In this document: in pieces, positions 315-28,980 of the stretch
Position numbering within the stretch: the first letter of the stretch is position 1
How the letters are laid out: each line of letters begins with the position of its first letter
Assembly: GCF_900129175.1 (NCBI RefSeq)
Contig: NZ_FQUI01000024.1
Coordinates: 1-33,891 of the forward strand
Source of the DNA: Marinitoga hydrogenitolerans DSM 16785
Lineage (GTDB): Bacteria; Thermotogota; Thermotogae; Petrotogales; Petrotogaceae
DNA: 33,891 nt
Direction: 5' to 3'
Translations under genes and position numbers: made by a program
Notes under the pieces: model-generated
Told to the model about the DNA's origin: nothing
The model's input: only the letters and a program-made list of their open reading frames with translations
Databases searched by the model: none

Positions 315-716
315 TTACAACCACCCATTTTTATCTTTGTAAAGATATAAAGGTAAATCCCAATGATATAACGTAATAAATGGTTCTATATTATTTTCTA
401 GCAAATTATCTATAAGTTTACTGTAAAAATCTAACCCTTTTTGATTCGGTTTAACCCCATCTTTCATTACTCGTGGCCAAGATATAGAAAACCTATATGC
501 ATTTACTCCTAAATTTTTCATTATCTCAATATCTTCATTATATTTATGATAATGATCACATGCAATATCTCCAGTATCACCATTTAATACTTTTCCAGGT
601 GTATGCGAGAATTCATCCCATATTGATAAACTTCTCTCGTCTTTTCCACCTTCAATCTGATATGCTGCTGTTGCTGTTCCAAAAACAAAATCTTTAGGAA
701 AATCCATCCTTTTCAT
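315..716 (-). pseudogene. GH1 beta-glucosidase, truncated by the IS21-like insertion
   Basis: The product starts [20 protein letters not shown], the standard opening of glycoside hydrolase family 1 enzymes, and contains [11 protein letters not shown] and TLYHWDLP, which belong to the substrate-binding half of the barrel. GH1 enzymes are about 440-460 residues long; this one stops after about 132. The acid/base (T-x-N-E-P) and nucleophile (x-E-N-G) motifs are missing, so the visible part cannot be catalytic. The last native codons are N-G-W, and the following TTG-TAA comes from the IS end, so the element itself supplies the stop codon. The start has a good ribosome binding site (GAGGGG, 5 bases upstream) and lies 1 base after the transporter ATPase gene, so it was the last gene of that operon. 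The remainder may survive on the far side of the IS, outside the window. Confidence 0.85.
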
Positions 717-717
717 T

Positions 718-1641
718 CTATCCCCTCACTTTTACAATATGGTCTTTTTCTATTTCTTTGCATCCATTTATTAAATCTGAATATTTTAAATATTTATTTT
801 CAAAATAAAATCTTTCTATTTCTTTAATAATAGCTTCAGGTATAAATTCCTCATTAAGATTCCATTTTTTATTTATTTCTGGGACAGAATTTAATAACAT
901 TTTAGTGTATGGATGTTGGGGGTTTTTATATACTTTTTCTGTATCACCATGTTCAACTATTTCACCTTTATACATAATTAATGTTCTATCACTTAAATAA
1001 TATCCAAGAGAAAGATCGTGAGTAATAAAAACAATTGCCATTCCGGTTTCTTTTCTTATACTTTCTAATAAATTTAAAACATCTATTCTTGTTGAAGCAT
1101 CTAACATACTAATTAGTTCATCTGCCACCAATATTTTAACGTCCATTAATAAAGCTCTTGCTATTAATAGCCTTTGTAGTTGTCCTCCACTTAATTGATG
1201 TGGATATTTTCCAAGTATATTTTTCGGATTCATGCCAACCTGAGTAATAGTCTTTTCTATTTTTTCCAATCTATTTTTTTCTGCGGGGAAAAAATTATCA
1301 AAAATCATTTTAAATACTCTGTCAACTTTAAATAAAGTATTAAAAGATGAGAAAGGATCTTGGAAAATAGCCTGAACATATCTATAATATGATTTAGTAT
1401 TTTTTATTTCCCATATATTTTTATCATTAAATAATATGTGACCAGATGTTGGTTTTATTAATCTTAAAATCATCTTTCCAATAGTTGTTTTTCCACTTCC
1501 ACTTTCTCCTATTAAAGATAAAATTTCACCTTTTTTTATATCAAAAGACACATTATTTACAGCTTTAAATTTGTTTTTTCCAAAAAAATCAGTTCCAAAT
1601 TCTTTAGTTACATTATTTAATTTCATATAAATTTCACTCAT
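718..1641 (-). CDS. Oligopeptide/oligosaccharide ABC transporter ATPase, DppF/OppF type
   Basis: This is the second nucleotide-binding subunit of a cytoplasmic-side ATPase pair that powers the permeases encoded upstream. It has Walker A GESGSGKT near residue 50, a Q-loop ([10 protein letters not shown]), the signature LSGGQLQR, a Walker B followed by Asp-Glu ([11 protein letters not shown], where the usual Pro after Glu is Leu), and the H-loop ITHD. The C-terminus carries the OppF-type [13 protein letters not shown] segment plus about 50 further residues. A GTG at 1650 and an ATG at 1647 are possible starts, but the ATG at 1641 is best spaced from GGAAGGTGA (1659-1651). The start region overlaps the end of the upstream gene's former frame, so translation was probably coupled. 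Opp/Dpp-type transporters of Thermotogota often carry oligosaccharides, and the adjacent beta-glucosidase supports a beta-glucoside substrate. That substrate is inferred. Confidence 0.9.
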
Positions 1642-1732
1642 AATCATCACTCACCTTCCAACAAGCAACTTGATGACCATCTTTAAAAGTTTTTATAGGT
1701 GGATTTTCCAAACATTTTTTATTAGCTAATGG
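1634..1732 (-). other. Orphaned C-terminal coding tail of the dppD-like gene
   Basis: After the TGA at 1735-1733 the same reading frame stays open for another 32 codons to a TGA at 1636-1634. It encodes PLANKKC followed by PPIKTFKDGHQVACW, which is the normal C-terminal end of OppD/DppD proteins. There is no frameshift, only the single stop codon. The conserved family pattern here is R-C-P with further cysteines downstream, so the TGA sits on the first Cys codon of that set. With readthrough the protein would be 323 residues. Confidence 0.8.
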
Positions 1733-1737
1733 TCATC
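1672..1737. repeat. Perfect 9-bp inverted repeat spanning the premature TGA of the dppD-like gene
   Basis: GATGACCAT at 1672-1680 is the exact reverse complement of ATGGTCATC at 1729-1737, with 48 bases between. The right arm contains the premature stop codon (TCA at 1733-1735, TGA on the coding strand). With the expected Cys codon TGT in place of TGA, the arms would mismatch at one position. Confidence 0.7.
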
Positions 1738-2605
1738 TAAATCTAAATCTACAGCCTTCTTCAATATTCAAAAGGTTTGGAGGAGTTCCATCTATACTTT
1801 CTAATTTTTCTTTTTTTATTCTAATATTACTTTTGGGAATTGAATTAATTAAAGCTTTAGTATAAGGATGTTTGGGATGGTTCAGAATGTTTTCTGTTTT
1901 TCCTATTTCGGCTATTTTTCCAGCATACATTATCATTATTCTATCTGCTATTTGATATAGGACACCAATGTCATGTGTTATAAAAATCATAGATTTAACT
2001 ATATTCATATTTCTAAATTTAATTAACATATCGCAGACAAATCTTTGAGAGCTTACATCTAAAGCTGAAGTTACTTCATCAGCTATTAAAAGATCTGGAT
2101 CTAATAGTGTAGAAATAACCATAATAACTCTTTGTTTCATTCCTCCAGATAATTCAACAGAATATTTTTCTATAACATTTGGATTAAGATTGACCAATTC
2201 CAATCTTTTTTTTACCTTATTAAAAAAATTTTCATCTGGTGTTATACCATGTTCTTTTACCAAATCTGATATAAAAGTCTTAATTTTTTTTGTTGGACTA
2301 AAAGCATCCATAGCATATTGAGGTATGATTGATATTTTTTCATATCTAATTTTTTTCATTTCTTTTTTAGGTAAATTTATTATATTTTTATTATTTAAAA
2401 GTACTTTACCAGATATATAATTCATAGGAGGTTTTAATAAAATTAAACTATTTCCCAATGTACTTTTTCCACACCCTGATTCTCCGGCTATTCCTAATAT
2501 TTCACCTTTGTTTATATCAAAAGATACATCATCAATAGCTTTTACATAACCTTTTAAAGTTTTATAATATATTTTTAGATTTTTAACATTTAATATCTTT
2601 TCCAC
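1733..2605 (-). CDS. Oligopeptide/oligosaccharide ABC transporter ATPase, DppD/OppD type, ending early at an in-frame TGA
   Basis: This is the first ATPase of the importer. It has Walker A GESGCGKST near residue 43, the signature LSGGMKQR, Walker B LLIADEVTSALD, the H-loop ITHD, and the OppD-type KHPYTKALINSIPKS segment. The ATPase core looks complete. The protein stops after GCRFRFR, where relatives continue with Cys-Pro and a roughly 30-residue Cys-containing tail; that tail is still present downstream in frame (1634-1732). In DppD-type subunits these cysteines bind an iron-sulfur cluster, so losing them could impair assembly. Translation starts at GTG 2605, 5 bases after the upstream permease gene, behind GGAGATGTGA. 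Either this is a nonsense mutation (TGT or TGC to TGA), a sequencing error, or a readthrough/selenocysteine site; the mutation is the simplest reading. Confidence 0.85.
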   Translation of the reverse strand: MEKILNVKNLKIYYKTLKGYVKAIDDVSFDINKGEILGIAGESGCGKSTLGNSLILLKPPMNYISGKVLLNNKNIINLPKKEMKKIRYEKISIIPQYAMDAFSPTKKIKTFISDLVKEHGITPDENFFNKVKKRLELVNLNPNVIEKYSVELSGGMKQRVIMVISTLLDPDLLIADEVTSALDVSSQRFVCDMLIKFRNMNIVKSMIFITHDIGVLYQIADRIMIMYAGKIAEIGKTENILNHPKHPYTKALINSIPKSNIRIKKEKLESIDGTPPNLLNIEEGCRFRFR

Positions 2606-2610
2606 TTAAA

Positions 2611-3468
2611 TCACATCTCCCGTAATTTAGGATTGAATACTTCATCTAAACCAGTATTTATAAAATATAGTGAGGTTACTAATAATGTGATTATCAAACC
2701 TGGTATAATAGCCCACCACCACATACCTAATTGAATAGCATTCCAATCTCTAGCAATTTGCATGATTAGTCCCAATGAAATTCCTTTTGTTGGACCTAAT
2801 CCTATAAAATCAAGAGTTACCGCAGATAAAACTGCTCCACCGAATTGAAGTATATATACCATAAATATATATGAAAACATATTGGATGCAATATCTTCTA
2901 AAATTATTTTTCTTGTCGGTAATGCAGATATTTTAGATAGATTAACAAACTCTTTATTTTTTATAGACATTGTTAACGATCTTATTGCACGTGCTGTCCA
3001 AGGCCAGTTAGTTAGACCAATAATAATGCTTTCAAAAACCATTCCTCTAAAAGATAAATATGCAGAAATTATTATTAGAATAGCTAAAGTAGGGATTACC
3101 AACATAATGTTTGTAATCATCATTAATCCTTCATCTATCCATTTGCCTTTATAACCAGATAAAAATCCTATAAATAAACCTATAATAGTTGCTATAGTTC
3201 CTCCAAAAAAACCTACAAAATATGAACTTCTTAAACCATATACAATTTGTGTATATAAGTCTTGTCCAAATATATTTGTTCCCAACCAATAATCTTTATT
3301 TGGTGGCATATATCCTGGACCAGCATAATCTAAAGGATTATATTTAGAAAAATATGGACCAATTATACCTAACATAAGTAAAATTGTAAAAACAAATATA
3401 CCAAAAATTACTTTTTTATTTTTTAAAGCAAAATATAAATAATCATATTTTTTTAAATCGAATTTCAT
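2611..3468 (-). CDS. ABC transporter permease, DppC/OppC type
   Basis: This inner-membrane channel subunit is 285 residues, normal for the family. It has an N-terminal membrane segment (about residues 21-42), the DppC-type sequence NPLDYAGPGYMPPNKDYWLGTN with the following G-Q-D, and about five more hydrophobic segments. The EAA-type loop that couples to the ATPases is around FVNLSKISALPTRKIILEDI. The ATG at 3468 follows GGAGGGAAC with good spacing. It starts 2 bases after the DppB-type gene and ends 5 bases before the DppD-type gene, so the operon is tightly packed. The substrate cannot be told from the permease alone. Confidence 0.93.
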   Translation of the reverse strand: MKFDLKKYDYLYFALKNKKVIFGIFVFTILLMLGIIGPYFSKYNPLDYAGPGYMPPNKDYWLGTNIFGQDLYTQIVYGLRSSYFVGFFGGTIATIIGLFIGFLSGYKGKWIDEGLMMITNIMLVIPTLAILIIISAYLSFRGMVFESIIIGLTNWPWTARAIRSLTMSIKNKEFVNLSKISALPTRKIILEDIASNMFSYIFMVYILQFGGAVLSAVTLDFIGLGPTKGISLGLIMQIARDWNAIQLGMWWWAIIPGLIITLLVTSLYFINTGLDEVFNPKLREM

Positions 3469-3469
3469 A

Positions 3470-4459
3470 TTATGTTCCCTCCGTATATGAATACCTTATT
3501 CTTGGATCAACAAAGACATAAATTATATCCACAATAAAATTACCTATTAACACCATAATAACAATTACTAAAAAAATCCCTTGGATTAAGAAATAATCTT
3601 GATTTTGAATAGCCTGCAATAACAAAAATCCTAATCCAGGATATGAAAAAACACTTTGTGTGGTTAAAGAACCTAAAATTATAGTACCTAATTGCAAAGC
3701 TAATCCTGTTATTTGAGGCAATATAGCATTCCTAAAAGCATATTTTCGTATTAATTTATCTGAAGCGCCTAATGCTTCCATATATTTAGAATAATTTGAT
3801 CCCATTTCATATATAATCATATTTCTCATTCCGATTGCCCAACCACCCATCATGACCAAAAATAAAGATATAAAAGGAAGAATTAAATGATATAGAAAAT
3901 CTAAAATGAATTTAATAGTAAAAGAAGGCGTTAATGTATAACTATACGCACCTGATAAAGGAAATATTGGAATGACAAATCCTAAAAACCATGCCATTAA
4001 CATAGCCATCCAAAAATATGGAGAAGAAGTTAAAAAGAAAAATATTGGTATAATTGAATTATCAGTCTTTTTATTTATTGCAGATAAAGCACCTAATTTA
4101 TTCCCAACAATCCAGCTTGATATTATCGCTGGAACTAATAGTAGAATATCATAAATAATAGAACTCTTTATTATGTCAACAACTTTTTTTGGATACAGAA
4201 AAACACTAACCCCTAAATCTCCTTTAAATAAGGAGATCCAAAAATTTATATATTGTTTCCAGAGAGGTTGATCAAAACCAAAAGCTTTGGTAAAATAAGA
4301 ATTTAATTTTTCTGTTGCTTCTGGAAGCCCGGAAAATCTGGATAGCGATAATGATATAGGATTACCTGGCATGAATCTTGGTATAGCCCAATCAATAGAC
4401 ACAGCAACAAAAAAAGTTATTAGATAAATAATAATTTTTTTCTTCAAATATTTTGCCAT
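3470..4459 (-). CDS. ABC transporter permease, DppB/OppB type
   Basis: This is the partner inner-membrane channel subunit, 329 residues. It opens with one membrane helix and the DppB-type R-F-M-P-G-N-P motif, then a long extracytoplasmic segment and about five further helices. The coupling loop is clear: YMEALGASDKLIRKYAFRNA followed by LPQITG. The C-terminus (F-V-D-P-R-I-R-Y) is typical of DppB. The start ATG is preceded by AGGAGGTTTAAA. A hairpin (4482-4510) separates it from the upstream binding-protein gene, which would allow less transcript for the membrane subunits than for the binding protein. Confidence 0.93.
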   Translation of the reverse strand: MAKYLKKKIIIYLITFFVAVSIDWAIPRFMPGNPISLSLSRFSGLPEATEKLNSYFTKAFGFDQPLWKQYINFWISLFKGDLGVSVFLYPKKVVDIIKSSIIYDILLLVPAIISSWIVGNKLGALSAINKKTDNSIIPIFFFLTSSPYFWMAMLMAWFLGFVIPIFPLSGAYSYTLTPSFTIKFILDFLYHLILPFISLFLVMMGGWAIGMRNMIIYEMGSNYSKYMEALGASDKLIRKYAFRNAILPQITGLALQLGTIILGSLTTQSVFSYPGLGFLLLQAIQNQDYFLIQGIFLVIVIMVLIGNFIVDIIYVFVDPRIRYSYTEGT

Positions 4460-4517: not shown

Positions 4518-6203
4518 TTATTTTGCAGGTTTTATATTTAGTAACAACATATTACCTCCTACCTGCCATCTTCCACCCCACAATGATGGCCATGCATACG
4601 GATTATTTTCATCAGGATAATTTGTCCAATATTTTTCACTTGCTTGGAACCACATTCCGTTATACCAAAGAGGAATAACAGGCATCTCTTCTAAAAATAT
4701 TTTTTCAATTTTTGATGCAATTTTTTTCGCTTTCTCTTCATCTTTAGTTTTATTAAATTCTTTAATTAAACTAAATAGTTCTTGATTTTTATACCTTCCC
4801 CAATTACCACCATATGCTTTTTCATTATCAATTTGTGTTGATTCAAATAACCAGTTAAAATATGTCCATGGTGTTGAAGAAACATTACTATTAAAATTAT
4901 TTATTAACATATCAAAAGTAGCTGAATTCATATCTTCCATATATTTACCGAAGTCAGGAAATTTTGGTTCGACTTTAATACCAACTTTTTCAAAATCAGA
5001 AGAAATATTTTTAATTGATTCCATCCAATCAGTCCAACCAAATGGAACGATAATAGTTAAATCAATTTTTTTCCCATCTAGAGTTTCTCTGAAACCATCG
5101 TTATCTATATCTTTGTACCCAGCTTCATCTAATATTTTTTTTGCCATAGCAGGACTATAACTAAATCCATAGTTTTCTACAATATCTTTATCATAATATT
5201 TCATCCATGAATCAACAGGTAAAAAGCCTAAAGGATTTGCGGGCTCAACTTGAAATTCAAAAACTCTTCTAATTATTGGAGATACGTTTATAGCGTAAGA
5301 TAAAGCTTTTCTAAATTTAGGATCATTCATATGCTCCTTCTTTGTATTTAAAAACAATAATGCTGTATTGTCTGATAACATATATGGAGCTTTTTCAAAC
5401 CATGTTTTTATTTTGTAAATATTTTTTACAGAGGGTATTCCAGGTAAGAAGAAATTACTTACATCTAATTCACCTTTCATAAGCATTCCTAAAGCAACAT
5501 TATTAGAGAATATTTTTAGTTCTATTAGATATTTTGGAGCTGGTAATCCAAAAATATTTTTTCCCCACCATTTATCATTTCTTTTGAAAATCATTCTATC
5601 ATCAGTTTTATCATAAGCTAAATACATTCCAGAACCTATAGGATTTTCATTTGATAAAGATACTACGCTATCTATAGGGTACTTACTCCATATATGTTTT
5701 GGTATTATTGCTATCTGATATAATTGGAAATCCCATTCATGATATCTTGGATCGGAAAATTCGAACAACAATTCAGTATTACTTAATTTTTTAATACTTG
5801 ACATCCAATTCCATATAGTTGAATAAGAAATACCTTTATTTTTCTTTGCAATTTCAAAAGTAAAAATAACATCATCAGCATTCATAGGATTTCCATCAGT
5901 CCACTTTAAATCATTTCTTAACTTTAGATAGTAATGATTATCATCTTTCCAATAACCTTTTTCAGCTAGCCATGGAATAAATTTATTGGTTAAAGGATCA
6001 TATGTAAATAAAGTTTCATAAACACCTCCAATAGTTCCTGGAACAGCAGCCCATGGTGTCAACGGGTTCCAATTAGATGGTGCGCTCCATAATCCTCCTC
6101 CGAAAAAGAATGTTTCATCTCTCTTAAATGTTTCACCAAACATGGAAACAAATAACATACTGAATACTAAAATTACTAAAAAATACTTCAATCTGAATTT
6201 CAT
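4518..6203 (-). CDS. Extracellular solute-binding protein, family 5 (oligosaccharide/peptide ABC transporter)
   Basis: This is the substrate receptor of the importer, 561 residues from the preferred start. A signal peptide is clear: M-K-F-R-L-K-Y followed by a hydrophobic stretch ending near residue 24 (F-G-E), with no lipobox Cys. The mature part has family-5 features: an N-P-L-T-P-W start, LRNDLKWTDGNPMNADDVIF, FRKALSYAIN, and a C-terminal IPLWYNG segment. The ATG at 6203 is chosen because GGGAGGAAG lies 4 bases before it; the ATG at 6218 would place that ribosome binding site inside the coding region. The family binds peptides or oligosaccharides. The family-5 proteins of Thermotoga that bind cellobiose or laminaribiose, and the GH1 gene at the operon end, favour a beta-glucan oligosaccharide here. 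That is inference. Confidence 0.92.
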   Translation of the reverse strand: MKFRLKYFLVILVFSMLFVSMFGETFKRDETFFFGGGLWSAPSNWNPLTPWAAVPGTIGGVYETLFTYDPLTNKFIPWLAEKGYWKDDNHYYLKLRNDLKWTDGNPMNADDVIFTFEIAKKNKGISYSTIWNWMSSIKKLSNTELLFEFSDPRYHEWDFQLYQIAIIPKHIWSKYPIDSVVSLSNENPIGSGMYLAYDKTDDRMIFKRNDKWWGKNIFGLPAPKYLIELKIFSNNVALGMLMKGELDVSNFFLPGIPSVKNIYKIKTWFEKAPYMLSDNTALLFLNTKKEHMNDPKFRKALSYAINVSPIIRRVFEFQVEPANPLGFLPVDSWMKYYDKDIVENYGFSYSPAMAKKILDEAGYKDIDNDGFRETLDGKKIDLTIIVPFGWTDWMESIKNISSDFEKVGIKVEPKFPDFGKYMEDMNSATFDMLINNFNSNVSSTPWTYFNWLFESTQIDNEKAYGGNWGRYKNQELFSLIKEFNKTKDEEKAKKIASKIEKIFLEEMPVIPLWYNGMWFQASEKYWTNYPDENNPYAWPSLWGGRWQVGGNMLLLNIKPAK

Positions 6204-6220
6204 GTTCTTCCCTCCCATAA

Positions 6221-27294: not shown

Positions 27295-28980
27295 GAGTGA
27301 ATTCAATTTAGAGAGAGGCTGCCCAGAAAACAAAGTAAAAAATAAACCAGAGGAAAGAAAAGGGGACAAAAAAGTAGAAAGTAAAGATTAAAAGTAAGAT
27401 AAAAACAAAAGTAATCAGTAATAATCTGTGAAAAAGCACAAAAGGAAGAGTATACTTAAAAAAGTATATTAAGAAAATACGTATATATCAAAAAAAGAAA
27501 CAATTCAAGAAAAGAAAAACTAAAAAGAACAAAAGAACTGAGAAGTCTTAATTTTAACAAATTTGGACGACTTAAAAATATAAATAAAAGGTTTTGGAAA
27601 ATAAAAAGAACAAAAAAAAGAATGAATAGAAATATTTGAATCAAACCAAAAGTGTTTAAAAAGAAAAGAAGAAAGTTTAATTTCAAATTTAAGCAAAAGG
27701 TCAAAGTTTTTAAAATAAAAGGTATTTCTAAAAGAGAATTTATTCGAATTAATAGCGTTAATATTCTCAATACGTTTTCTAAATCGATAAACAAATTTGA
27801 AAATAAAAGAAGAAGGTATTTTTAAACGTAACAGGTTAAAATTAAAAGACTGATAATATTGGATATTTGGAATAATAGGAACCCAAACTCTACCAGAACA
27901 GTTAGGATTTAAATTACAGGTTTTTCTGAGTGGGCAAATAAAACGGTGACGATTTCTGGAATAATCACTACCATCAGACTGTAAAAAATGATTAGAAAGA
28001 GAACAAAAAAGCCTATTATTTTTAATTTTAATATGACCTAATTTAGAAAAAGAAGAAGATTTTTTTAAAGGAATAAAGGGTATAGCACCAGCAGAAATAA
28101 TATTATAAAAACAGAAAAAGAATCATACCCTTTATCCAGAGTAAAAAACACATAAAAGCCTTTAGAAGAGCAAAAACGAATAAACGATTTAATATTATCA
28201 AAAATTAAATTCTGAAAAATAGTATTATCGTGATAATTAGCAGGGCGAAAAACAGAAAAAAGATTAAAATAAAAAGGAAAAACAATATCAACATGATGAA
28301 AACGAATACCCAATTTTTTGTTATAAAATTTATTATGAGAATGAATAACGCCTTTAGGAACATTACCATCGACAAGAATAGGTTGAGAATCAACAGAAAG
28401 AACAATAAAACCAAGTTTTTTAAAAATAAAAGAAAAACGATTTAAATAAGATTTAGCAAGAGCAAGTTTAAATGAATTCAAAAGACATAACAAATTAGAT
28501 AGACCAATACGCCTTTTAAAGTAAAAATAAGTAGTATAACACGGAACTGAATCACGAAAACCACAAAGTTGTAAATATTCCGGAGGAACAACAGATAAAA
28601 TATCTCTAGACGAAGTAAAAGCGTCTTCAGAAAAAATAGAATTAAGAAGGAAAAATAATCGTAAAAGAGAAGTAGGATCATAAGGAGAATTCTTATTGGG
28701 TTTATGAGAATAAAAAGAAATAAGAAAATTAAAAAGTTTGTTCATATCGAGGGAATTAAAAGCGTCAGAAGTTATACTAAAAAGTTTATCCTTTAAATTG
28801 TCCAAAACAAAAACATTTCTAGAACTTCTGAACATGGTATCACCTCCAATATGTTTTTGGTACAATACAATAATACTACAAAATAATAATATTACAAAAA
28901 TAAATCTGCATCAAATAGTAGGGGTGATGCCCTTTTTAGAAATAGCTTATAATCAGTTTTCTGTAAATTGAATTTACACT
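27295..28980 (-). mobile_element. Complete insertion sequence of about 1.69 kb with terminal inverted repeats
   Basis: The ends match: left AGTGAATTCAATTTAGAGA (27296-27314) and right, read inward from 28980, AGTGTAAATTCAATTTACAG, the same apart from a 2-base indel and one mismatch. Identical 14-bp direct repeats flank it. It carries one transposase gene on the minus strand (27520-28835, frameshifted) and a noncoding tail of about 225 bases at the left, which holds an AT hairpin around 27450-27470 and is otherwise purine-rich without features. The plus strand of the whole element is strongly purine-rich, unlike the host genes. The family was not identified; the 14-bp duplication is long for most IS groups. 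Confidence 0.85.
27520..28835 (-). pseudogene. DDE-type transposase with a single frameshift
   Basis: The first part (ATG 28835, preceded by GGAGGTGATACC) reads MFRSSRNVFVLDNLKDKLFS and contains likely catalytic Asp residues in IVLSVDSQPILVDG and FTLDKGYDSF. The frame then runs off at an A5 run on the plus strand (28107-28111) and ends at 28065. The other frame continues without a stop to TAG at 27522-27520 with IPFIPLKKSSSFSKLGH, a Cys motif (CPLRKTCNLNPNC) and F-R-K-R-I-E-N-I-N, which may hold the catalytic Glu. Adding one base gives about 438 residues, a usual transposase size. A -1 slip on G-UUU-UU is possible, but there is no classic slippery heptamer, so a mutation is more likely. Residue roles are inferred from the pattern. 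Confidence 0.8.

Follow-up and report, generated by a model that had tools for sequence, protein, structure and literature searches.

The oppD/dppD-type ATPase gene in an uptake operon of Marinitoga hydrogenitolerans DSM 16785 carries an in-frame TGA where its relatives have a cysteine codon, and the best reading, which we consider probable, is a recent nonsense mutation at this codon in a dispensable operon that is decaying. The window analysed was the whole 33,891-nucleotide contig C24 of the draft genome (2.31 Mb in 87 contigs, 100% complete).

Results

An in-frame TGA at a cluster cysteine

The minus-strand frame from 2605 to 1634 was translated and contained a sole internal TGA (1735..1733), followed after 32 in-frame codons by the natural oppD stop, itself a TGA (1636..1634). 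Both PF00005 (ABC ATPase) and PF08352 (oligo_HPY) were found above their cut-offs in the read-through protein. Four cluster cysteine positions can be recognized in the read-through frame, at 285, 291, 298 and 315, and all four C-terminal cysteines are present in the OppD proteins of close relatives. An earlier reading made from the sequence only (the sequence-only reading) had placed the TGA at the first cysteine of the R-C-P motif; the motif is as described, but among the four cluster cysteines the residue comes second.

The iron-sulfur role that had been ascribed to this residue is confirmed by the literature. In the cryo-EM structure of E. coli DppBCDF, DppD residues Cys284, Cys290, Cys297 and Cys315 bind a [4Fe-4S] cluster, Cys290 being the equivalent of the interrupted position, and replacement of the four cluster cysteines by Ser abolished pull-down of the complex (PMC12136057). 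Only C285 precedes the TGA in the Marinitoga frame, and C298 and C315 lie beyond it, so the predicted product lacks the set of four cysteines expected of a [4Fe-4S] site. The OppF protein of the operon has no Fe-S tail, either here or in relatives, and OppD would therefore carry the sole cluster.

A point mutation from a Cys codon to TGA would end the ATPase after 290 residues, and this truncation would remove the last stretch of the C-terminal region and, with it, three of the four [4Fe-4S] ligands. Judging from E. coli DppD, assembly of the importer would then fail, which suggests loss of transporter function. Termination at the TGA also leaves approximately 80–90 bases untranslated ahead of oppF, whose translation may be lowered as a result.

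Table 1. Features of the window around the interrupted ATPase gene.
Feature	Position	Strand	Remarks
IS21-type IstB, C-terminal part, at contig end	3..260	+	PF01695, E 2.9e-32
Family 1 glycosidase (beta-glucosidase type), N-terminal 132 codons, broken off	315..716	-	
oppF-type ATPase, intact	718..1650	-	start overlaps natural end of oppD; no Fe-S tail
oppD/dppD-type ATPase gene, one in-frame TGA	1634..2605	-	complete frame of 323 codons
32-codon tail 3' of the TGA	1637..1732	-	third and fourth cluster cysteines; divergence like that of the gene body
Inverted repeat GATGACCAT...ATGGTCATC enclosing the TGA	1672..1737	-	not a SECIS element
In-frame TGA, codon 291	1733..1735	-	TGT or TGC in 15/15 aligned homologues
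oppC permease, intact	2611..3468	-	own stop is TGA
oppB permease, intact	3470..4459	-	
oppA-type solute-binding protein (SBP_bac_5), intact	4518..6218	-	

The TGA is private to one genome

The read-through protein was searched against 40 relative genomes, and the codon at the site was compared in 15 aligned homologues. This alignment, which the sequence-only reading had proposed as a check, agreed with the translation that the TGA replaces a conserved Cys codon: every homologue had one, TGT in G006, G002, G007 and G011, for example, and TGC in G004 and G001. Among the matches listed from the 40 relatives, a stop was seen in the genome's own copy only, and a TGA at the site in no other species. 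The three same-genus orthologues, 82–83% identical to the read-through protein, align over residues 1–323 with no stop, in keeping with the earlier description of an intact 32-codon family tail after the TGA. Sister species with intact orthologues and a lesion private to one genome are the pattern of a pseudogene formed by a recent nonsense mutation. Two further genomes, G005 (99% complete) and G003 (87% complete), gave as best match only a paralogue of 42–43% identity; that both are without a close copy of the ATPase argues that the gene is dispensable within the genus.

Compared with G004, 17 of 96 bases differ in the tail and 154 of 870 in the body, 17.7% in each case, and by codon position the differences number 6:1:10 for the tail against 40:13:101 for the body. 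These counts imply about equal constraint on tail and body over almost the whole period since divergence from G004. Because the tail resembles the body in both divergence and codon-position bias, the TGA is either very recent or an assembly error. For oppD relative to the sister species, dN is approximately 0.09 and dS approximately 0.9, both of which fall inside the spread seen for the remaining genes of the operon. Constraint still seems to act on those genes and on oppD apart from the TGA, so the inactivation, if real, would be very young.

A second lesion in the operon

The operon has the order oppA-oppB-oppC-oppD-oppF-glycosidase. In G001 and G004, oppF is followed by an undamaged glycosidase gene, a frame of 440 codons. 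The genome studied here keeps the first 132 codons of this gene next to oppF, as far as about position 319, with the IstB fragment lying beyond, up to the contig end, while the codons from approximately 208 on were located on a second contig of the same genome (C58, positions 1–987); approximately 75 glycosidase codons are in neither C24 nor C58. We infer that the two contigs adjoin; the glycosidase gene was probably broken by a mobile element, with a probable deletion. A glycosidase that is also broken, and beside a mobile element, points to decay of the operon, which would be an accessory peptide or oligosaccharide uptake system decaying in the sequenced strain. Elsewhere in the window, a minus-strand frame at 28065–28865 resembles part of a transposase; it matched no Pfam family at E 0.001 and is possibly a mobile element remnant.

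Mutation or base error

The strongest competitor of a nonsense mutation is a base-call or assembly error, in which case the organism's own DNA would have a Cys codon here, in an intact gene. We regard an error as unlikely, while giving it a substantial minority share of the probability. The assembly is a draft of many contigs; a single base separates the TGA at codon 291 from a Cys codon; the tail is otherwise undamaged and matches the body in divergence; and oppA, oppB, oppC and oppF are all intact, each of which fits an error. Against this, the 26 other genes of the window, amounting to approximately 9,500 codons, contain no such break, and the break sits in an operon with a second, independent lesion. 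That the operon is damaged at a second point favours mutation over a base error, without proving it, and we infer that the TGA base is real.

Decoding of the TGA

Partial read-through of the TGA, yielding small amounts of full-length protein in which near-cognate tRNA-Trp would probably have placed a Trp, appears improbable. The TGA is followed by C at this site, TGA-C being a leaky stop context in E. coli, and the 32-codon tail is open. However, the cluster cysteine is not replaceable by Trp, and the only candidate decoder was the tRNA-Trp itself, with anticodon CCA (that of tRNA-Cys is GCA); none of the scanned tRNA loci carries a UCA anticodon, in a set that is not fully complete, as tRNA-Ile is missing from it. 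Nor does anything point to regulation of such read-through, since the listed homologues from relatives have no stop. Reassignment of TGA or a suppressor tRNA was rejected, as TGA ends six of the 26 window genes and is also the natural stop of oppD, RF2 is present in the genome, and a tRNA with a UCA anticodon was not found among those loci.

We consider it more doubtful still that the 290-residue ATPase is produced and functions with no iron-sulfur cluster, which would make the importer of this strain cluster-independent. The nucleotide-binding domain is kept in the predicted product.

Selenocysteine

Replacement of the Cys ligand by selenocysteine has a negligible probability, although the usual signature of a selenocysteine codon, a TGA exactly where a Cys is conserved, is present. 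Profile searches of the 100%-complete genome gave no match above curated cut-offs for selA, selB or selD, the weak matches belonging to SufS, EF-Tu and PurL; the identical selA search did find E. coli. The best matches of the tRNA-Sec model in the genome were ordinary tRNA-Ser, tRNA-Leu and tRNA-Tyr. The machinery search that had been suggested at the outset thus recovered neither selA, selB and selD nor tRNA-Sec in this genome, and selA was absent from all seven genomes of the genus. The Thermotogae are among the clades reported to be without SelD in two surveys (PMC5029168, PMC5322559). The sequence-only reading had seen no SECIS hairpin, and this holds: for the 46 bases from the TGA onward, folding gave -2.1 kcal/mol (z -0.04), no better than shuffled sequence. 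With machinery, SECIS element and phylogeny all negative, selenocysteine is ruled out to the extent that the assembly is complete. That reading had offered nonsense mutation, sequencing error and, less likely, selenocysteine; its ranking is supported, and the last option can now be dropped. A search of Rfam at the site gave no match above the gathering score, and a functional RNA was rejected, the sole hit being a chance match to mir-84 far below cut-off.

An inverted repeat around the TGA

The 9-bp stem that had been described round the TGA does exist, the arm GATGACCAT at the TGA pairing with ATGGTCATC, 48 bases further on, but its fold is not better than those of shuffled sequences (z approximately -1.0 to -1.2). 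Relatives with a Cys codon also possess most of the stem, and G006, whose codon is TGT, has the same arms paired. At the site, the pair is T-A in G006 and A-T in the window, with mismatches in G004 and G001; these mismatches and the non-significant z-score rule out a conserved stem. The TGA makes the inverted repeat a perfect 9-bp match. It is possible that the other arm served as template for the nonsense base, through template switching, although the match concerns a single base and has no statistical support.

Discussion

The verdict is most likely an ordinary one, a recent nonsense mutation or an assembly error, and neither recoding nor a new kind of coding. The gene offers a clean example that, without Sec machinery, finding TGA in place of a conserved Cys codon is no evidence of selenocysteine. 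The operon should be marked as probably non-functional in the sequenced strain; the case has little significance beyond annotation.

The likeness to bacterial selenoprotein genes extends to a TGA at a conserved Cys position and a conserved downstream frame. They differ in that here there is no Sec machinery, no SECIS element and no second species with the TGA. From recent strain-specific nonsense pseudogenes, on the other hand, no difference was seen: a single lesion, a functional-looking tail, intact sister orthologues and a broken neighbour are common to both. Among known OppD/DppD ATPases (E. coli DppD, M. tuberculosis OppD Rv1281c, PDB 4fwi), the read-through frame aligns end to end. The Cys spacing of the Marinitoga frame is near that of E. 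coli DppD (284/290/297/315), and the ABC domain and oligo_HPY tail are likewise shared. The difference from these ATPases is that the codon for the second cluster Cys is here a TGA, with a predicted stop before three of the four ligands.
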